A DNA stretch of 64,000 bases from a virus (IMGVR_UViG_3300021093_000047:1-64000), one strand, 5' to 3'. Numbered from the stretch's first letter, positions 55,937-63,184 are shown. Translations and numbers: made by a program. Notes: a model not told the origin generated them from the sequence alone.

Positions 55937-56419
55937 CTATTTATTTCTAATATTTTGGACTACTTCGTAGTCATAGTCAAGGATTTTTTGCAAATATTCA
56001 TCATCCCAAGCATCATAATAAGACGTTGTGGCAAGTTTTTTTCTTAATTTTGTCAAAAATTCCTTATCTTGATACAAAATTAAATTATATTTTTGATTAT
56101 TTGTCTGTTTTTCACCAAGAAATGTTGGTTGAGATGCACAATCTTCAAAAAAAGTATATTTTGGATATTTTTTTGAGAGATTTTTACATTTTTCTTTAAT
56201 AGAATCTAATTCTAGGTCGTCTTCAACAATAAAAATAACGACACCATACTCTTCAGAAAGAAGTTTGATGTCGTTAATTGGTGATTCTACAATTTTATAA
56301 GATTTTTGTCCGTAAATTTTAGCAAATGGACATAAAGAGAACCCGTTTAAGTCTGGATGATGAACTGAAACTCTTTCAATCCAGTCTAAAACGTGACTTT
56401 CTTTATTTTCCTTGTCCAC
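55937..56419 (-). CDS. DUF1415-like protein
   Basis: 160 aa if translation starts at the GTG at 56419. This start is chosen because the codons further upstream coincide with the coding frame of the small basic gene, and the GTG overlaps that gene's end with an AAGGAA-type box ~8-13 nt upstream. No ATG is available. The product has HPDLNGFSLCPFAK near residue 20, the N/S-L-C-P-F-A core that I know from DUF1415, and later VVIFIVEDDLELDSIKEKC and ASQPTFLG. The biochemical role of DUF1415 is unknown. Family assignment is tentative. Confidence 0.65.
   Translation of the reverse strand: MDKENKESHVLDWIERVSVHHPDLNGFSLCPFAKIYGQKSYKIVESPINDIKLLSEEYGVVIFIVEDDLELDSIKEKCKNLSKKYPKYTFFEDCASQPTFLGEKQTNNQKYNLILYQDKEFLTKLRKKLATTSYYDAWDDEYLQKILDYDYEVVQNIRNK
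55938..55945 (-). promoter_or_regulatory. Candidate T4-type late promoter (AATAAATA) upstream of speD
   Basis: One mismatch to TATAAATA, 47 bp upstream of the speD ATG, overlapping the end of the DUF1415-like gene. Confidence 0.35.
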
Positions 56420-56546
56420 GATACTTTTTCCTTGCCTTATTACGACTCGTTGCACTATATTTAGTATTACGTCCTGCACCCTGAAGAGTTAGTTTTGGTT
56501 TGCTTTCAACTTTAACTCCACCTTTCGCACTTTTCTTCACTGCCAT
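56403..56546 (-). CDS. 47-aa basic protein
   Basis: MAVKKSAKGGVKVESKPKL ... GAGRNTKYSATSRNKARKKYRGQGK: strongly basic, lysine- and glycine-rich, with no hydrophobic core. GGAG lies 8 nt before the ATG and the stop overlaps the next gene, so it is translated. It may bind DNA or RNA; no family recognised. Confidence 0.75.
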   Translation of the reverse strand: MAVKKSAKGGVKVESKPKLTLQGAGRNTKYSATSRNKARKKYRGQGK

Positions 56547-57826: not shown

Positions 57827-58003
57827 TTATATATCAACCTTTTGAGATTTTTTTGCTGCCCGAAAATTTTTTCTAAGATTTTTCACCATAATTCTCATAA
57901 GTTCTCCGAGGGTCACTCCGATATACTCAAACTCTTCCTTATGGGTGGTTTTCGTACTTAGAGAATTTTTTTTTCTCAAAGACAAATTCAATGGCACAAT
58001 CAT
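57827..58003 (-). CDS. 58-aa basic protein (tentative)
   Basis: An ATG-initiated open frame whose C-terminal half (EYIGVTLGELMRIMVKNLRKNFRAAKKSQK) reads like a basic amphipathic helix. There is no Shine-Dalgarno sequence and the N-terminal third contains an AAAAAAAAA run, so the start is uncertain; the M at codon 36 is an alternative. It is the first open frame after the strong promoter at 58272-58300. Confidence 0.4.
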   Translation of the reverse strand: MIVPLNLSLRKKNSLSTKTTHKEEFEYIGVTLGELMRIMVKNLRKNFRAAKKSQKVDI

Positions 58004-58098
58004 ACTTTTATAGATTAGGGTAGTTATGCGTTTTTATTTTTAGGGGGGCATCGGTTCTTAATACTTTATACCATCAATCGCAATATACTGTCTATAAG

Positions 58099-58440
58099 AA
58101 TTAAACAACACTGTTTAATTATAATAAACGAACAATAACGAATAATAATAAAACTATACTGGATATAAAGAATAATAAACTATTACGGGGGTATAAGTAT
58201 ACCGAATCGGGCAGATATAACGAATTAAGTAACACTGAGGAATTAGAATAATAAACTATACCCCAGGTATCATAATACTCGAAGACGGCACAGTTGTCAA
58301 CAGATAAGGACAAAACATAAGGCACTATACAACACTGTGTGATTGTTATAAGAAACTGTATCCCAGGTATGATACCTGTGGAAAACTCTTATACTTTTTC
58401 CACAACCCTGTGGAAAAAGTATTGTGGAAACTGTGGAAAA
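58099..58440. other. Candidate replication origin: AT-rich repeats, dyads and DnaA-box-like cluster
   Basis: No gene is visible here. From left to right: a hairpin with 9-bp arms (AATTAAACA/TGTTTAATT, 58099-58120); a 14-bp direct repeat GAATAATAAACTAT at 58170 and 58246; the dyad GGTATA-AG-TATACC (58190-58203); the 15-bp palindrome CAGGTAT-G-ATACCTG (58364-58378). Then come four exact copies of TTTTCCACA or its complement (58377-58385, 58396-58404, 58409-58417, 58432-58440) and one 8/9 copy (58423-58431). Two of the copies form an 11-bp-arm hairpin (58394-58419). TTTTCCACA differs by one base from the E. coli DnaA box and, as I recall, is the form described for cyanobacterial origins. Confidence 0.5.
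58272..58300 (-). promoter_or_regulatory. Strong sigma70-type promoter
   Basis: Minus strand: TTGACA - 17 bp - TATTAT, i.e. a perfect -35, optimal spacing and 5 of 6 in the -10. It points at the small genes 58003-57494. A leader of ~260 nt would precede the first open frame and contain the 58099-58120 hairpin. Confidence 0.7.
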
Positions 58441-58537
58441 CTTTATATCAACCCCTGTGCAATTCTTATAAGCATTAGGTGTTTATAACGAATTCCCTCT
58501 CCTCCCGCCCTATAAATCTAGCACGAACTGCATAAGA

Positions 58538-58662
58538 CTCATAAGACGAATGGACAGTTCTCAGAGTGTCCTTGGACGAATGAAACGCATAAGTCTTTTG
58601 AGTCTCATGGACGAACAAATAAAAATCCTCCGAGTCTCATAAGACGTATGAGTTCTCAGAGT
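58538..58662. repeat. Noncoding direct-repeat block
   Basis: CTCATAAGACG(A/T)ATG at 58538 and 58636, and AGTTCTCAGAGT at 58556 and 58651, i.e. a composite unit repeated at 95-98 bp. Variants (GCATAAGACT, GCATAAGTCT, GGACGAA twice) fill the space between. A 12-bp palindrome GTATTATAATAC follows at 58671-58682. No open frame fits. Confidence 0.6.
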
Positions 58663-58758
58663 CTTATTAAGTATTATAATACACGAAACCCCTTGACATA
58701 ACTGTAAAGTTGTGCTGGGGAATTATCGTGTGCCAGTTTTTGGAGTGTCTTATAGTGC

Positions 58759-58787
58759 TTGACTTTTCTGAGGTTTTATGATACAAT
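58759..58787 (+). promoter_or_regulatory. Plus-strand sigma70-type promoter
   Basis: TTGACT - 17 bp - TACAAT on the plus strand (5/6 and 5/6). It is the only convincing plus-strand signal in a window whose genes are all on the minus strand. Downstream are three GATT(T)AGAGA repeats (58814-58825, 58837-58846, 58848-58859) and no open frame, so the product would be a noncoding or antisense RNA. Confidence 0.5.
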
Positions 58788-58981
58788 GCACGCTTAGACG
58801 GCAATAACTAGAAGGATTTAGAGAGTATAAGAACAGGGATTAGAGACCGATTAGAGAGGCATACAATAAGGAGAGAAAGGGTATTTATAACACTTTTCAA
58901 CCTCTTATTCTAATCAACACAAAACACAAACATATGTTTTTTAATACATTTTTTTTAATTATCTCTTATTACACAATCACA

Positions 58982-59039: not shown

Positions 59040-59336
59040 TTAGTAAGAAGCAGCTTCGAGTGTAATGTTTTCTTTTCTTGAGAGTTGATCGACTTGATAA
59101 GAGATTTCTTCATTCATACAATTATACACAGTCTCATAGATTACATCATAACAATCTAAATTAGAAAGAACTTCCTCTGCAAGTTCATCATTGTATGGAT
59201 AAACAATTTCATTTGTAACTGGGTCATAATGCTCTAATTCTTTTACATCTTGTTTTGTATAAAGAAGAGAAAAGACCGTATCATTCGGATTCATCTTTTC
59301 CAGTTGATGAATAACGTCTTTGACTGTTTGTTTCAT
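59040..59336 (-). CDS. 98-aa unknown protein
   Basis: MKQTVKDVIHQLEKMNPNDTVFSLLYTKQDV, then acidic and tyrosine-rich (DELAEEVLSNLDCYDVIYETVYNCMNEEI) and ending LSRKENITLEAASY. Soluble and mostly helical. It is the last gene of the nine-gene operon and overlaps the previous gene by 4 bp. No family recognised; the acidic composition is like that of phage-encoded inhibitors, which is only a suggestion. Confidence 0.7.
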   Translation of the reverse strand: MKQTVKDVIHQLEKMNPNDTVFSLLYTKQDVKELEHYDPVTNEIVYPYNDELAEEVLSNLDCYDVIYETVYNCMNEEISYQVDQLSRKENITLEAASY

Positions 59337-59527
59337 TTGTTTAGGGCAATCAGTTCTTGATGAATAGTAAGTACATCATATTCATCATCTACTTCGTTTA
59401 GATCAACAGGTGCAAATTCAGAAAGATTTACAGTGTTGTCTGCGTAGATAGGAGCATAATACAACTCTTGAGAATCAGTGTCAAGAGTGAAAATGCAACC
59501 GTAATCTTCTTTGCGAATGAGAATCAT
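59333..59527 (-). CDS. 64-aa unknown protein
   Basis: MILIRKEDYGCIFTLDTDSQELYYAPIYADN ... ending EYDVLTIHQELIALNK. Beta-hairpin start and acidic middle. Overlaps both neighbours by 4 bp (ATGA junctions). A near-perfect promoter sequence lies inside the coding region (59456-59484). Function unknown. Confidence 0.7.
   Translation of the reverse strand: MILIRKEDYGCIFTLDTDSQELYYAPIYADNTVNLSEFAPVDLNEVDDEYDVLTIHQELIALNK
59456..59484 (-). promoter_or_regulatory. Intragenic sigma70-like promoter
   Basis: Minus strand TTGACA - 17 bp - TATTAT within codons for LDTDSQELYYAP. It has the same quality as the promoter at 58272-58300. If active it would express the 98-aa gene separately. Confidence 0.4.
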
Positions 59528-59607
59528 TTGAAGGAATTAAGAATAATCAGAAGTTCGTTACCGTCGATTGCTCTAGACAGCAATTCGATTTTAGTTTTCT
59601 TTTTCAT
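59524..59607 (-). CDS. 27-aa micro-protein
   Basis: MKKKTKIELLSRAIDGNELLIILNSFK. It starts in a TGATG junction with the previous gene and ends in an ATGA junction with the next, so it fits exactly between two coupled genes. A lysine-rich start and one amphipathic helix. It may serve only to keep ribosomes moving, or be functional. Confidence 0.5.
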   Translation of the reverse strand: MKKKTKIELLSRAIDGNELLIILNSFK

Positions 59608-59747
59608 CAGTTGGACATTACTTTGTTGAACAGAGAATCATAAGCATCTTCATTCATCCAATCAGGAATGTCTCCATCAATGAATTGAAGAACAGATTGA
59701 AGAACTTCTAATTCTTCAGGAGTGAATCGGAAAATCATTTCTTCCAT
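59607..59747 (-). CDS. 46-aa acidic unknown protein
   Basis: MEEMIFRFTPEELEVLQSVLQFIDGDIPDWMNEDAYDSLFNKVMSN in outline: an acidic helix-loop-helix. It begins inside the last codons of the membrane micro-protein and ends in TGATG. No family recognised. Confidence 0.6.
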   Translation of the reverse strand: MEEMIFRFTPEELEVLQSVLQFIDGDIPDWMNEDAYDSLFNKVMSN

Positions 59748-59854
59748 TTGATTTCTTGTGCTTTGAAATACTTGTATTCTCGAATAAAAACTTTAATTGC
59801 CCAGATTGCAGTTGCAGTCTTACCAATTAAAAGTATCCAACCAACTGTTACCAT
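59735..59854 (-). CDS. 39-aa single-pass membrane micro-protein
   Basis: MVTVGWILLIGKTATAIWAIKVF forms one hydrophobic helix (residues ~3-23) followed by a short basic, aromatic tail (IREYKYFKAQEIKWKK), as expected for a membrane peptide with a cytoplasmic positive end. It overlaps the next gene by 13 bp. It could act on the host membrane; inference only. Confidence 0.55.
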   Translation of the reverse strand: MVTVGWILLIGKTATAIWAIKVFIREYKYFKAQEIKWKK

Positions 59855-59855
59855 T

Positions 59856-60017
59856 TTAGTTACTCACTTGACGTTGATTCAATCGAGCAGGAGATCCACA
59901 AGAACGGTAAAACTCTACCATTCTTTCTGCTTCCTCAAGAGTGTTAAAATATTGACTTCTCCACTCACAATCATTGTAAGGAATTTGATAAGAAACTTCA
60001 AACATTTGTTTAGACAT
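59856..60017 (-). CDS. 53-aa protein, paralogue of its upstream neighbour
   Basis: MSKQMFEVSYQIPYNDCEWRSQYF, then TLEEAERMVEFYRSCGSPARLNQ. From MFEVSY onward it aligns with the preceding gene product (MYQISFQVPY...WRTRFYDTLQEAEDAVEFYNS), so the start could also be the ATG at 60005. The overlap ATGTCTAA with the upstream stop favours 60017. Small alpha/beta protein, function unknown. Confidence 0.65.
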   Translation of the reverse strand: MSKQMFEVSYQIPYNDCEWRSQYFNTLEEAERMVEFYRSCGSPARLNQRQVSN

Positions 60018-60156
60018 TTTGAGTGTTGATAACTTGAGCAGGAAAACCAATAAAAGAATTATAAAACTCTACGGCATCTTCTGCTTCTTGAAGTGTATCA
60101 TAGAATCGAGTTCTCCACTCATTTGTATATGGAACTTGAAAAGAGATTTGATACAT
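60010..60156 (-). CDS. 48-aa protein, paralogue of its downstream neighbour
   Basis: MYQISFQVPYTNEWRTRFYDTLQEAEDAVEFYNSF in outline, with a strand-strand-helix pattern (Q-x-P-Y, W-R-x-x-(F/Y), T-L-x-E-A-E) shared with the next gene, indicating a tandem duplication. It begins 1 nt after the previous stop. Too short for the usual length cut-off but strongly supported by the paralogy. Confidence 0.7.
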   Translation of the reverse strand: MYQISFQVPYTNEWRTRFYDTLQEAEDAVEFYNSFIGFPAQVINTQNV

Positions 60157-60157
60157 T

Positions 60158-60322
60158 TCAGGCATTGATCAGAGTTTGCAGTTGATTGAAATCTTTACAT
60201 TGTGCTGCTTGAATTGCTTTGGTGATGGAATAAGTCACAAAACCACAACGTTCAGTCTTGGTTTCACACACAGCATAAACAGGTTGTTTCGTCTGAATGT
60301 CGAAAACAGTCTTAATCAGCAT
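60158..60322 (-). CDS. 54-aa unknown protein
   Basis: MLIKTVFDIQTKQPVYAVCETKTERCGF ... then a helix SITKAIQAAQCKDFNQLQTL. Three cysteines. Second gene of the operon that begins at the 60573-60665 module. No family recognised. Confidence 0.6.
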   Translation of the reverse strand: MLIKTVFDIQTKQPVYAVCETKTERCGFVTYSITKAIQAAQCKDFNQLQTLINA

Positions 60323-60355
60323 TGGTTGTTTGTTTATGTGGGACAGATGAAAGAT

Positions 60356-60529
60356 TTAGATGCGAGCAAGAGCATCTTTCTTTTGCTTCGGATTGGAAAC
60401 TTTCTTCACCCAAGAAGATTTACGATGCGATTGAATCTGCGAAGGAAGTTTTTGCTTACCCTGAACTTCATCAATCAGTTGAATGAAGTGAATGAAGAAT
60501 TGCTTTTCCATCCGTTGTGCAGCAGTCAT
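60356..60529 (-). CDS. 57-aa basic unknown protein
   Basis: MTAAQRMEKQFFIHFIQLIDE, then a lysine/serine-rich tail (QIQSHRKSSWVKKVSNPKQKK). First gene after the 60573-60665 promoter module. The bases around the start (AATCAAGATGACTGCTG) recur at the first gene after the third module (62998), so start region and promoter were probably duplicated together. No Shine-Dalgarno. Confidence 0.6.
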   Translation of the reverse strand: MTAAQRMEKQFFIHFIQLIDEVQGKQKLPSQIQSHRKSSWVKKVSNPKQKKDALARI

Positions 60530-60572
60530 CTTGATTCAAATAAAGAATTAGACTTAGGTGGGACAGTGCGAC

Positions 60573-60665
60573 CTGCTCCCTCCACCCTCTTAATATAGCA
60601 CCTTTTGGGGTCTGTGCTCTTTTAGTGTGCCACTAGAACAAGTGGCACATCGCATAGTTGGACTC
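60573..60665 (-). promoter_or_regulatory. 93-bp promoter module, copy 1
   Basis: Minus-strand order: GAGTCCAACTATGCGA, inverted repeat TGTGCCACT-TGTTCT-AGTGGCACA (60626-60649), CTAAAAGAGCAC, 16 variable bases, TATATT (60592-60597), then AAGAGGGTGGAGGGAGCAG. It heads the nine-gene operon 60529-59040. Distances are identical in all three copies. Confidence 0.65.
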
Positions 60666-60689
60666 ACATGAGTTGATGCTACCTTTGAA

Positions 60690-60974
60690 TCAAAGGTGAG
60701 AGAGAACTTTCATCATTGCAGAAACTTCTGCTTTTGTATTCCAACCCATTACATCTTCTGTCATATTACCATTCGGTCGGAAGATTGCAACCTCATAAGT
60801 ATTCTCATTGATATTACCATACAAACCACAGTTCGGAGGACCAGCAACAACAGAAATACTCCAATCATTCTCAAACTTATGTCGTGCAGCAATCGCACCA
60901 GAAATACCATTCAGATGCGGTTGAAATTGAAGAAGGTCAAACATTGTATCAAACAAGTTGTTGGGACAGTGCAT
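60690..60974 (-). CDS. 94-aa unknown protein
   Basis: From the ATG at 60974 (an upstream TTG is also in frame): MHCPNNLFDTMFDLLQFQPHL, then GAIAARHKFENDWSISVVAGPPNCGLYG, NTYEVAIFRPNG and a C-terminal helix. A compact alpha/beta fold is likely. The last codons and stop lie in a perfect dyad (ACCTTTG-AAT-CAAAGGT). Overlaps the previous gene by 26 bp. Function unknown. Confidence 0.65.
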   Translation of the reverse strand: MHCPNNLFDTMFDLLQFQPHLNGISGAIAARHKFENDWSISVVAGPPNCGLYGNINENTYEVAIFRPNGNMTEDVMGWNTKAEVSAMMKVLSHL

Positions 60975-61281
60975 ACTTAACAATCTCAGTGCGATTGTCT
61001 TTATATTGAATCAGCAAATCAATAATTGGTTTGTAATCATTTGGGTCTTGAATTTCTGGGTCACACTCATCATCGGCAAGTGCAGTAAAAATAGTTGCAA
61101 TTTCAAAGTCCGACTCAAACAAATGCTCCCGATGCTCGTCAATTAGTAGATAATCTTCAATAGCATTAGAACTCAGTTTCAGTGGAATGTCAGGACCAAT
61201 CAAACCAAGAGTTGCAAGTCGTTCCAATGCACCAACAACCCACATTACTTTACACTCACCAACAGACATTTGTGCGTTCAT
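60949..61281 (-). CDS. 110-aa unknown protein
   Basis: Start at the ATG at 61281 (MNAQMSVGECKVMWVVGALERLATLG); the frame extends to a TTG 15 bp upstream and another ATG lies 12 bp downstream. Helical, acidic in the middle (ALADDECDPEIQDPNDYKPII), ending KYALSQQLV. No family recognised. Second gene of the operon that starts with the DUF2786 gene. Confidence 0.65.
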   Translation of the reverse strand: MNAQMSVGECKVMWVVGALERLATLGLIGPDIPLKLSSNAIEDYLLIDEHREHLFESDFEIATIFTALADDECDPEIQDPNDYKPIIDLLIQYKDNRTEIVKYALSQQLV

Positions 61282-61322
61282 TGTATCAAGAATCAAAGGG
61301 GAAAAAAGAAAGGGTGTTTAAC

Positions 61323-61997
61323 TCACACCCCACAGAGTTGTTTAGTCACAGAACCAGATGCTTGACGGTTCAAAGAAACACCAGCACCAACATTGGAACC
61401 AGCATAAGCACCAGCACCGTTAGCACCATTCATCTTCTTTGCACGTCCAAATCGCATCGTGGAGAGTTTGCTCTTCACTGCATCAGCATCATCATGCACT
61501 CGACCTTCTGCTTCTTTCATTTCACGCAGACGTTCTGCAACCTTATCAGCAAATGCTTTACGGAAGTTCAATTTGAAACTGCGGGAAACAGTTTTACCAG
61601 TCAAATCTGCCATAACTTTTTCTGCTTTATGTGCAACATCTGCCTCTTTCTCCATCACCTGCACCAGGTAATCATAATAGAGACGCACTTGGATTTGTTG
61701 TGCTTCACTACCAATCACTTGCAGAGACTTAGTATCACCATTCTTCAGGTATGCCATTGCATCATAGAACTTTGCAATCGCATTAGCAATCGTAGTCAGA
61801 GCAACATTAGTTTTCTTGAAAGAGATAAAAGACTCATCAAGAACTTGAGTTTCAGTTGCTTCAGAGATTGTTACACCATACTGCTTGCACAGTTTATCAA
61901 TCATCTTAGCAGCAGCATCTGCTTCACCCTCAAAAGAAGTTCCATTCTGAAGTTTCAGGATGGATTGAATCTTTGCGATGACTTGCTGACGATCCAT
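61323..61997 (-). CDS. DUF2786-like protein
   Basis: 224 aa from the ATG at 61997. The N-terminal ~45 residues (RQQVIAKIQSILKL ... EADAAAKMIDKLCKQYGV) match DUF2786: a helix with KIxxILxLA-type spacing, then an E-A-x-x-A-x-x-x-A/I motif and K-Y-G-V/I. The rest is a long helical domain (YYDYLVQVMEKEADVAHKAEKV ... NFRKAFADKVAERLREMKEAEGRVHDD) and a glycine/alanine-rich, basic tail (KKMNGANGAGAYAGSNVGAG). DUF2786 proteins occur in phages and bacteria without known biochemistry; a DNA- or ribosome-related role has not been shown. First gene after module copy 2. Confidence 0.8.
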   Translation of the reverse strand: MDRQQVIAKIQSILKLQNGTSFEGEADAAAKMIDKLCKQYGVTISEATETQVLDESFISFKKTNVALTTIANAIAKFYDAMAYLKNGDTKSLQVIGSEAQQIQVRLYYDYLVQVMEKEADVAHKAEKVMADLTGKTVSRSFKLNFRKAFADKVAERLREMKEAEGRVHDDADAVKSKLSTMRFGRAKKMNGANGAGAYAGSNVGAGVSLNRQASGSVTKQLCGV

Positions 61998-62027
61998 AAT
62001 CAAATAAAGAATGGGACTCGGGTGGGA

Positions 62028-62120
62028 CTGCTCCCTCCACCCTCTTAATCTACCAGAAAAAAGTTCCAGTGCTCTTTTAGTGTGCCACTAGAACAAGTGG
62101 CACGTCTCAACACTGGACTC
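62028..62120 (-). promoter_or_regulatory. 93-bp promoter module, copy 2
   Basis: Same arrangement: GAGTCC, inverted repeat GTGCCACT-TGTTCT-AGTGGCAC (62082-62103), CTAAAAGAGCAC, 16 variable bases, TAGATT (62047-62052), AAGAGGGTGGAGGGAGCAG. It heads the DUF2786 operon. The flank between GAGTCC and the inverted repeat differs from copies 1 and 3, while the hairpin and leader are identical to copy 1. Confidence 0.65.
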
Positions 62121-62232
62121 ACCGAGTTGTGCTGATAATGTCAGCAACAGTGTAAAGAGTATTTGCAGTTAGGTTTCTCACACTAGGAGAGAAAATAAAT
62201 GCAACTGCAAAGATGAGAATTATAGTTTTCAT
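62119..62232 (-). CDS. 37-aa exported or membrane micro-protein
   Basis: MKTIILIFAVAFIFSPSV then RNLTANTLYTVADIISTTR: a lysine, a ~13-residue hydrophobic core and small residues, the shape of a signal peptide or a short membrane anchor. Its stop codon lies in the first bases of promoter module 2. No Shine-Dalgarno sequence is seen, so existence rests on composition and position. Confidence 0.45.
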   Translation of the reverse strand: MKTIILIFAVAFIFSPSVRNLTANTLYTVADIISTTR

Positions 62233-62261
62233 CTTATTTGGTGCCTTAAATGTTAATGTCT

Positions 62262-62483
62262 TCACTTATCAATCAGTTCGGTACGACCCTCATCCATCAA
62301 ATCACCGAAAGCATACATCACATCTTTCTCAATGCGAGCAAGATTATCTAAAGTCCAGTTATCCCAAATCTCATCATCACCATCATACAACTCTTCAATC
62401 CAATAGTGAAAGCAATTCACATCCCAGTTATACAGATTATTGAGTGCTTCACAGATAGCATCAGACAGTTCTGCTTGAGTCAT
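62262..62483 (-). CDS. 73-aa acidic unknown protein
   Basis: MTQAELSDAICEALNNLYNWDVNCFHYWIEELYDGDDEIWDNWTLDN in outline, then IEKDVMYAFGDLMDEGRTELIDK. Highly acidic, many tryptophans and tyrosines; a DNA-mimic-like composition, which is only a remark. No family recognised. Confidence 0.65.
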   Translation of the reverse strand: MTQAELSDAICEALNNLYNWDVNCFHYWIEELYDGDDEIWDNWTLDNLARIEKDVMYAFGDLMDEGRTELIDK

Positions 62484-62511
62484 TGTTTTACTTTAGTTGT
62501 GATGGAAAAAA

Positions 62512-62700
62512 TCAGGCACAGATGGAATAGAGTTTATCAAACTCGTATTCACCATCTTCACCCTCAACTGCCTGATAAACAATCACAGTTTCACCAGACA
62601 GTTCAACACTCCAATCAAGAGCATCTTCTTTGGCATTATCTACATCTTGATACCACTCAGCATCAATCAGGTCAAAAGAGACAGGGCAAGAAAGAAACAT
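62512..62700 (-). CDS. 62-aa acidic unknown protein
   Basis: Start at the ATG at 62700 (MFLSCPVSFDLIDAEWYQDVDNAKEDALDW); a GTG 48 bp upstream is in frame but reads through a hairpin. A beta-strand, acidic helix, then ETVIVYQAVEGEDGEYEFDKLY. Small and very acidic. No family recognised. Confidence 0.6.
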   Translation of the reverse strand: MFLSCPVSFDLIDAEWYQDVDNAKEDALDWSVELSGETVIVYQAVEGEDGEYEFDKLYSICA

Positions 62701-62731
62701 CGGAGTCAAAAACAAATGAATTAGTTTGATG

Positions 62732-62776
62732 GTGCAAGTGTGATACACCTCATCAGGATGTAACAGGGACTTGCAC
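62732..62776 (-). other. Intercistronic hairpin
   Basis: GTGCAAGT (62732-62739) pairs with ACTTGCAC (62769-62776), and an inner TACACC/GG(A)TGTA stem continues the fold. It lies 30 bp upstream of the 62700 start and has no T-run, so it could affect mRNA stability or translation rather than termination. Confidence 0.5.
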
Positions 62777-62794
62777 TCTATCGTTTCTATTTAA

Positions 62795-62998
62795 TCAGAC
62801 TGCGGCAAGATAAGCAGCAATCTCATCATCATTCTCGGGACAATCAGCAATTCCCAGGTCTTCACAAACTTGCTCACGAGTGAGTTCAGTTTGCTCAGGA
62901 ACCAGAACATTCAGAATGTCAAGAATCTGAGTTCCAGTCTGCCCCTTGCGAAGCATACCGAGCATCACATCAGCAGAAAAAGTAGCAACAGCAGTCAT
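62795..62998 (-). CDS. 67-aa unknown protein
   Basis: MTAVATFSADVMLGMLRKGQTGTQILDIL, then VPEQTELTREQVCEDLGIADCPENDDEIAAYLAAV. Two or three helices, acidic C-terminus; the first half has the look of a helix-turn-helix-like or dimerisation helix but no clear motif. First gene after module copy 3, with a ~95-nt leader. Confidence 0.65.
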   Translation of the reverse strand: MTAVATFSADVMLGMLRKGQTGTQILDILNVLVPEQTELTREQVCEDLGIADCPENDDEIAAYLAAV

Positions 62999-63091
62999 TT
63001 TGATTAAGATAGAGTTTGAGTTGAAGTGATGAGGTTAGATAACAGCATACTTGCCAAGATGCCATTTGACGTTATCGAGGTGGTCTTATTG

Positions 63092-63184
63092 CCTCCCTCA
63101 CCACCCCTATACAATACCACATTTTGGACCCCGTGCTCATTTACTGTGCCACTAGAACAAGTGGCACATCGCATAGTTGGACTC
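63092..63184 (-). promoter_or_regulatory. 93-bp promoter module, copy 3
   Basis: GAGTCCAACTATGCGA and the inverted repeat TGTGCCACT-TGTTCT-AGTGGCACA (63145-63168) are identical to copy 1 over 40 bp. GTAAATGAGCAC, 16 variable bases, TATTGT (63111-63116) and a diverged leader ATAGGGGTGGTGAGGGAGG follow. It heads 62998-62119. Confidence 0.6.

Follow-up and report, generated by a model that had tools for sequence, protein, structure and literature searches.

In a viral DNA stretch of 64,000 nucleotides (the window; positions 1-64000 of the 78,020-bp record IMGVR_UViG_3300021093_000047), three minus-strand modules at 60573-60665, 62028-62120 and 63092-63184 precede runs of small genes, and we conclude with high confidence that they belong to a family of promoters. 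Each carries a palindrome that is, by its sequence, the same element as found in the promoter of yfr2, the cyanobacterial gene for Cyano-1 RNA. In this way the virus probably borrows a host regulator to turn on a large number of its small genes. A likely occupant of the palindrome is the host GntR regulator PlmA (PMM1637), and the view as a whole, namely that PlmA is recruited by a borrowed operator and activates sigma70-type phage promoters, seems reasonably probable to us. It builds on the promoter architecture, its spread and the match in half-site and spacing to cyanobacterial yfr2 promoters, all of which are observed in the genomes compared; binding and activation by PlmA and the early timing of the genes we infer.

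An initial annotation of the window had described each module as GAGTCC, a perfect inverted repeat with arms of 8-9 bp around a TGTTCT loop, TAAA(A/T)GAGCAC and one of the hexamers TATATT, TAGATT or TATTGT, with a run of small genes behind, and all of this is found where it was placed. The palindrome GTGCCACTTGTTCTAGTGGCAC lies on the minus strand at 60627-60648, 62082-62103 and 63146-63167; allowing up to 3 mismatches it has 3 matches in the window against 0 expected from shuffles. Copy 2 has arms of 8 bp, the other two copies arms of 9 bp. The distance from the outer end of GAGTCC to the end of the hexamer, claimed to be exactly 74 bp, is so in 3/3 (60665-60592, 62120-62047 and 63184-63111). 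None of the modules was picked up by a consensus scan for TTGACA/TATAAT with a TTGACA-like -35 at 16-18 nt from the -10, in agreement with the statement that GAGCAC is not a host -35. Two claims hold in part. The three copies exist, but there are more members: a fourth at 58729, which points into a stretch without a plus-strand gene, and six beyond the window in the same record, all on the minus strand (64686, 66275, 67780, 71095, 74811 and 76256); in each of these six a -10-like hexamer stands 41-42 bp away from the centre of the palindrome. Likewise, GAGTCC, the TGTTCT loop and GAGCAC are present in the window copies but mark a subclass only, GAGTCC lying outside the family core. The modules sit in a micro-gene region beyond gene 25; the window also contains gene 6.

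A wider search of the genome and its relatives, as the annotation had proposed, led beyond it to a larger family that spans the T4-like cyanophages and to an operator shared with the host. The core of the family is a 24-bp palindrome, TGTGMCAST-N6-ASTGKCACA, centred at about -53 from a predicted transcription start placed from the sequence. Its members have in common the arms of the palindrome, the 10 bp that separate TGTGMCA from TGKCACA, and a sigma70-type -10 at 40-43 bp from the centre. Scanning IMG/VR with the palindrome returned 66 stretches, nearly all with this architecture, the spacer holding GAGCAC or another sequence and the -10s being varied; the GAGCAC subclass counts 133 distinct promoters among the fetched contigs. 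Scans of IMG/VR with relaxed arms (TGTGMCA, TGKCACA) gave at least 1083 distinct site-directions. Among the matches listed, exact TATAAT is concentrated 40-43 bp away from the centre (135 of some 177 occurrences between 12 and 74 bp), TTGAC peaks at 18-19 bp (105), and TAnnnT is present at 40-43 bp in 631 site-directions.

The 10-bp arm gap is the only enriched gap in isolate genomes, with 94 strand-counts when 1 mismatch is allowed; each other gap from 6 to 14 gives 0-4. Convergent half-site pairs with a 6-bp gap number 90, and any other convergent spacing occurs at most 3 times. For seven isolates a -10 was found at 40-43 bp on at least one side of 31/47 sites and on both sides of 8/47 (control offset: 1), and a start codon follows 22-35 nt behind the -10 in 21 of the 25 found. 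A -35 matching at 4 or more of 6 positions is seen in 15/39 isolate members, against a background of 14%. The palindrome-to--10 distance fixed in hundreds of sites, the divergent -10s on one palindrome and the position of the start codons support the annotation's proposal of promoters with a factor-bound inverted repeat. As a guess, GCACA in the GAGCAC subclass may be a third half-site, incomplete and lying over the -35 position. The window subclass also has GGGTGG directly after the -10 and CCACC shortly after it (60569-60597, 62024-62052 and 63092-63116, minus strand); hairpins at the 5' ends of the window transcripts (GGGTGG..CCACCC) were rejected, their folding being no stronger than that of shuffled sequence (z -0.35 to -0.79).

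When 1 mismatch is tolerated, 10/11 T4-like cyanophage isolates carry sites, mostly clustered: P-SSM2, S-CRM01 and S-SSM7 have 11 each, P-RSM4 9, S-SKS1 7, S-PM2 and P-HM2 6 each, Syn9 4, P-SSM4 3 and S-RSM4 2. At the same threshold they are absent from T4, the cyanopodoviruses P-SSP7 and Syn5 and the cyanosiphovirus PSS2, and Ma-LMM01 has no site at up to 2 mismatches. The majority of the sites of P-SSM2, as in S-SKS1, fall into the micro-gene region that immediately precedes gene 25; several of those in S-CRM01 precede runs of transfer RNA (tRNA) genes. For P-HM2, the main text of the expression paper (PMC5082946) gives no gene-level classes for the region concerned. Three tandem minus-strand members of P-SSM2 (66336-66614), each with TATAAT, face a stretch without an annotated minus-strand gene and possibly drive an unannotated RNA. 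Two phage contigs denoted G023 and G027, which have genes like those of Ma-LMM01 and hardly any Kyanoviridae proteins, contain tandem arrays of palindrome plus TTGACA with a period of about 57 bp (77001-96000 in G023), amounting to 36 sites in G023 and 34 in G027 when 1 mismatch is allowed.

On the host side, a more specific pattern applied to the whole phylum yielded 11 sites in 292 cyanobacterial genomes against about 0.1 expected. At 8/9 inspected host loci the palindrome is followed by a small RNA (sRNA), with a -10-like hexamer at the same or nearly the same spacing as in the phages, and Infernal identifies this RNA as Cyano-1 RNA (RF01701) in 8/8 loci. Among 56 Cyano-1 promoters chosen without regard to the palindrome, 39 contain the half-site within 2 mismatches, at preferred positions, against 22% of shuffles. 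The half-site TGTGMCA(G/C)T is common to the phage arms and to these unselected promoters. Outside the picocyanobacteria, Cyano-1 promoters keep the proximal half as in phages, and half-site order, spacing and -10 distance are phage-like in several yfr2 promoters; those of picocyanobacteria are often divergent.

PMC6778093 reports that PMM1637, a GntR regulator common to all cyanobacteria, binds yfr2 promoters with the CGRE1 motif, that the MED4 genome has CGRE1 at no other place, and that the induction of Yfr2 in high light and late nitrogen starvation is mediated by PMM1637; it also describes the conserved motifs of Yfr1 and Yfr2 as nearly complementary. PlmA is scarce, an S. elongatus cell having about 400 chains of it; its reported partners are the PII-PipX complex and thioredoxin, and its regulon is said to be still undefined (PMC6243067). 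One GntR domain match above the cut-off was obtained in 22/26 picocyanobacterial host genomes, and neither this domain nor Cyano-1 RNA was detected in 16 phage records. PlmA would bind the 24-bp operator as a dimer just upstream of the -35 position and help the host RNA polymerase to initiate, a good -35 being absent from most of these promoters. Centred at -53 beside the polymerase, such a dimer could touch sigma region 4 or the alpha C-terminal domain, and this would fit the weak -35 of most members. The outcome would be that small phage gene cassettes are turned on, and in S-CRM01 also tRNAs.

Several points weigh against a role for PlmA. The exact phage palindrome is about as frequent among picocyanobacteria as chance predicts: a host regulon defined by it was rejected, with 8 occurrences in 121 genomes against about 4 by chance and in settings that are not promoter-like. 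The strict palindrome was found in only 6 contigs among 84,980 bacterial and archaeal genomes, about the chance expectation. Picocyanobacterial Cyano-1 promoters show a divergent arrangement, AACTGKCAC-GTGMCAGTT, in 9/28 and the convergent one in 0, and picocyanobacteria are the hosts of most of these phages. S-SM2, also a T4-like cyanophage, has 0 sites at up to 1 mismatch. Furthermore, the operator was likened to CGRE1 by way of Cyano-1 promoters, and RF01701 is taken by us to be the sRNA Yfr2 because GTGTGTGAGGAG at its 5' end would complement the Yfr1 motif and because it has a GAAACA loop.

The near-chance count of the exact convergent palindrome would suit real promoters bound by a phage-encoded factor that recognises this half-site too, perhaps a small DNA-binding protein made early. 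A candidate family (phrog_1308/1920), seen in Syn9 (57929-58093) and its homologues as a small conserved protein that resembles a helix-turn-helix and has no Pfam match, is present in 6/7 isolates. It is missing, however, from P-HM2, which has sites, and this rules it out as a universal regulator. Ten small core families compared with Pfam and PHROGs included no convincing DNA-binding regulator. G023 has the operator but shares almost no protein with Kyanoviridae, which is what a common factor supplied by the host would lead one to expect, and the core families considered for a regulator shared by both offered only PhoH and a weak reductase match. Host Yfr2 promoters also carry the same half-site, and we regard a phage factor as unlikely.

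An equally improbable alternative, in our view, is that PlmA does bind but acts as a repressor or is mainly cargo, so that the genes stay off until it leaves or PlmA is titrated from yfr2. The 15/39 isolate members with a fair -35 could do without an activator, and the cellular number of PlmA chains may be set against up to 36 sites in single phages. Nonetheless, an operator centre at -53 leaves the -35/-10 core uncovered, a good -35 is missing in most members, and the reported effect of PMM1637 on Yfr2 is induction.

Near-identical blocks recur beside different flanking genes, in a region that varies strongly between phages. This could point to mobile cassettes or recombination sites with an incidental promoter, their likeness stemming from recent copying and not from a bound factor. 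We consider this very unlikely, given that the arms, the gap and the -10 distance are fixed while interior and flanking bases diverge, and that the same geometry precedes a host sRNA gene.

Judged by how it varies, the palindrome is a DNA element and not an RNA one. Arm position 8 is C/C or G/G in 469 IMG/VR sites and Watson-Crick paired in 302 (among the matches listed, and with one contributing scan favouring the paired form), which suggests tolerance of independent arm changes; correlated changes at arm position 5 are uninterpretable because the scans fixed that base. Relative to the -10 the palindrome is found either way round, also between divergent -10s, and as it lies upstream of the -10 it is absent from the transcript it would start. 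No T-run follows it at the three window copies, which are not among the window's terminator-like sites. An RNA hairpin (terminator or processing site), raised in the annotation as the alternative and known from the PeSL cassettes of other T4-like phages, could draw on the perfect 8-9 bp arms of the window class, on two operator copies annotated publicly in S-CRM01 as rho-independent terminators (125862-125891 and 154634-154661) and on terminator-like hairpins between palindrome and -10 in some members (e.g. S-SKS1 161420), but is highly improbable in view of the arm position at which mismatches outnumber pairs.

Table 1. Promoter modules and the genes behind them in the window.
Feature	Coordinates	Strand	Basis
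Copy 1, operator, 24-bp palindrome TGTGCCACTTGTTCTAGTGGCACA	60626..60649	-	sequence, shuffle test
Copy 1, GAGCAC at -35 position, 16 bp from -10 (subclass feature)	60614..60619	-	
Copy 1, -10 hexamer TATATT, preceded by TGC (extended -10)	60592..60597	-	
Small-gene run behind copy 1 (first start codon 60529)	59040..60529	-	
Copy 2, operator, 24-bp palindrome CGTGCCACTTGTTCTAGTGGCACA	62081..62104	-	sequence, shuffle test
Copy 2, GAGCAC at -35 position	62069..62074	-	
Copy 2, -10 hexamer TAGATT	62047..62052	-	
Three genes behind copy 2	60690..61997	-	
Copy 3, operator, 24-bp palindrome TGTGCCACTTGTTCTAGTGGCACA	63145..63168	-	sequence, shuffle test
Copy 3, GAGCAC at -35 position	63133..63138	-	
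Copy 3, -10 hexamer TATTGT	63111..63116	-	
Four small genes behind copy 3	62119..62998	-	
Fourth member: degenerate palindrome TGTGCCAGTTTTTGGAGTGTCTTA (2 mismatches, 58729-58752), then TTGACT-17-TACAAT at canonical distance	58729..58787	+	

The fourth member is contained in an AT-rich stretch of about 950 bases without a convincing gene (58004-58955). Several TTTTCCACA repeats resembling DnaA boxes are found there, as well as a 58-nt repeat present three times (58141, 58217 and 58317); the stretch may represent an origin of replication or else an RNA locus. No Rfam families were detected in the window. Elsewhere, at 56403-56546, a basic protein of 47 amino acids rich in lysine and arginine (phrog_516, no assigned function) is encoded that is kept in 7/7 T4-like cyanophages compared.

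T4-like cyanophages are among the commonest marine viruses. The control of their early and middle genes, in the absence of Alt, MotA and AsiA, has been described as unclear (PMC2984593). A fixed layout of operator plus -10 in most isolates, matching a host sRNA promoter, is a concrete candidate for such a mechanism; PlmA would gain a large set of candidate targets and may link the nitrogen and redox state of the host to phage transcription. It is conceivable, although we lean somewhat away from it, that a small-gene regulon has been built on an operator that serves a single sRNA in the host, with the nitrogen/carbon and redox regulator PlmA licensing phage transcription and the phage copies drawing PlmA from yfr2. 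If true, this regulon would supply a control switch for phages lacking Alt, MotA and AsiA. Among phage promoters that carry the operator of a host regulator, those with this palindrome are provisionally new: no such palindrome appears in accounts of early and middle control in cyanomyoviruses (PMC2984593) or of NtcA and Pho boxes (PMC3037559), while the primary description of CGRE1 and the Syn9 transcriptome lie outside this comparison and may mention phage sites.

Among known systems, the T4 late promoter (TATAAATA, no upstream element) is excluded by the TATATT, TAGATT and TATTGT hexamers and by the conserved upstream palindrome. The late promoters served by P2 Ogr and P4 Delta have a dyad operator near -55, a weak -35 and an activator that aids sigma70 polymerase. 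They work alike in these three respects without implying membership; Ogr, however, is phage-encoded, binds a different site (TGT-N12-ACA) and drives late genes. T4 middle promoters under MotA and AsiA share a non-consensus -35 and an activator-bound element beside a good -10, whereas the MotA box overlaps -30 and is not palindromic, and cyanomyoviruses lack motA and asiA (PMC2984593). Predicted NtcA and Pho boxes before some metabolic genes of cyanophages (PMC3037559) also place the operator of a host regulator before phage genes. They differ in regulator and motif, and do not form a repeated promoter architecture across a micro-gene region.

PeSLs (promoter early stem-loops) are small sigma70 promoter cassettes with an inverted repeat, located between genes of hyperplastic regions in T4-like phages (cited in PMC4503421). 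The promoters described here resemble them in being of sigma70 type and in separating cassettes within a plastic gene region. The PeSL repeat is a terminator, however, whereas the palindrome of the present family is a DNA site conserved in sequence and set upstream of the -10 at a constant distance; a stem followed by a T-run was not found at the three window palindromes, and arm variants that do not pair occur in the family. With the yfr2 promoter of CGRE1 and PlmA the phage promoters share the half-site TGTGMCA(G/C)T and, for several non-picocyanobacterial genomes, the convergent order and the distance from palindrome to -10. Half-sites in picocyanobacteria differ in being often divergent, and whereas the host element serves essentially one sRNA gene, the phage element precedes many protein and tRNA genes.

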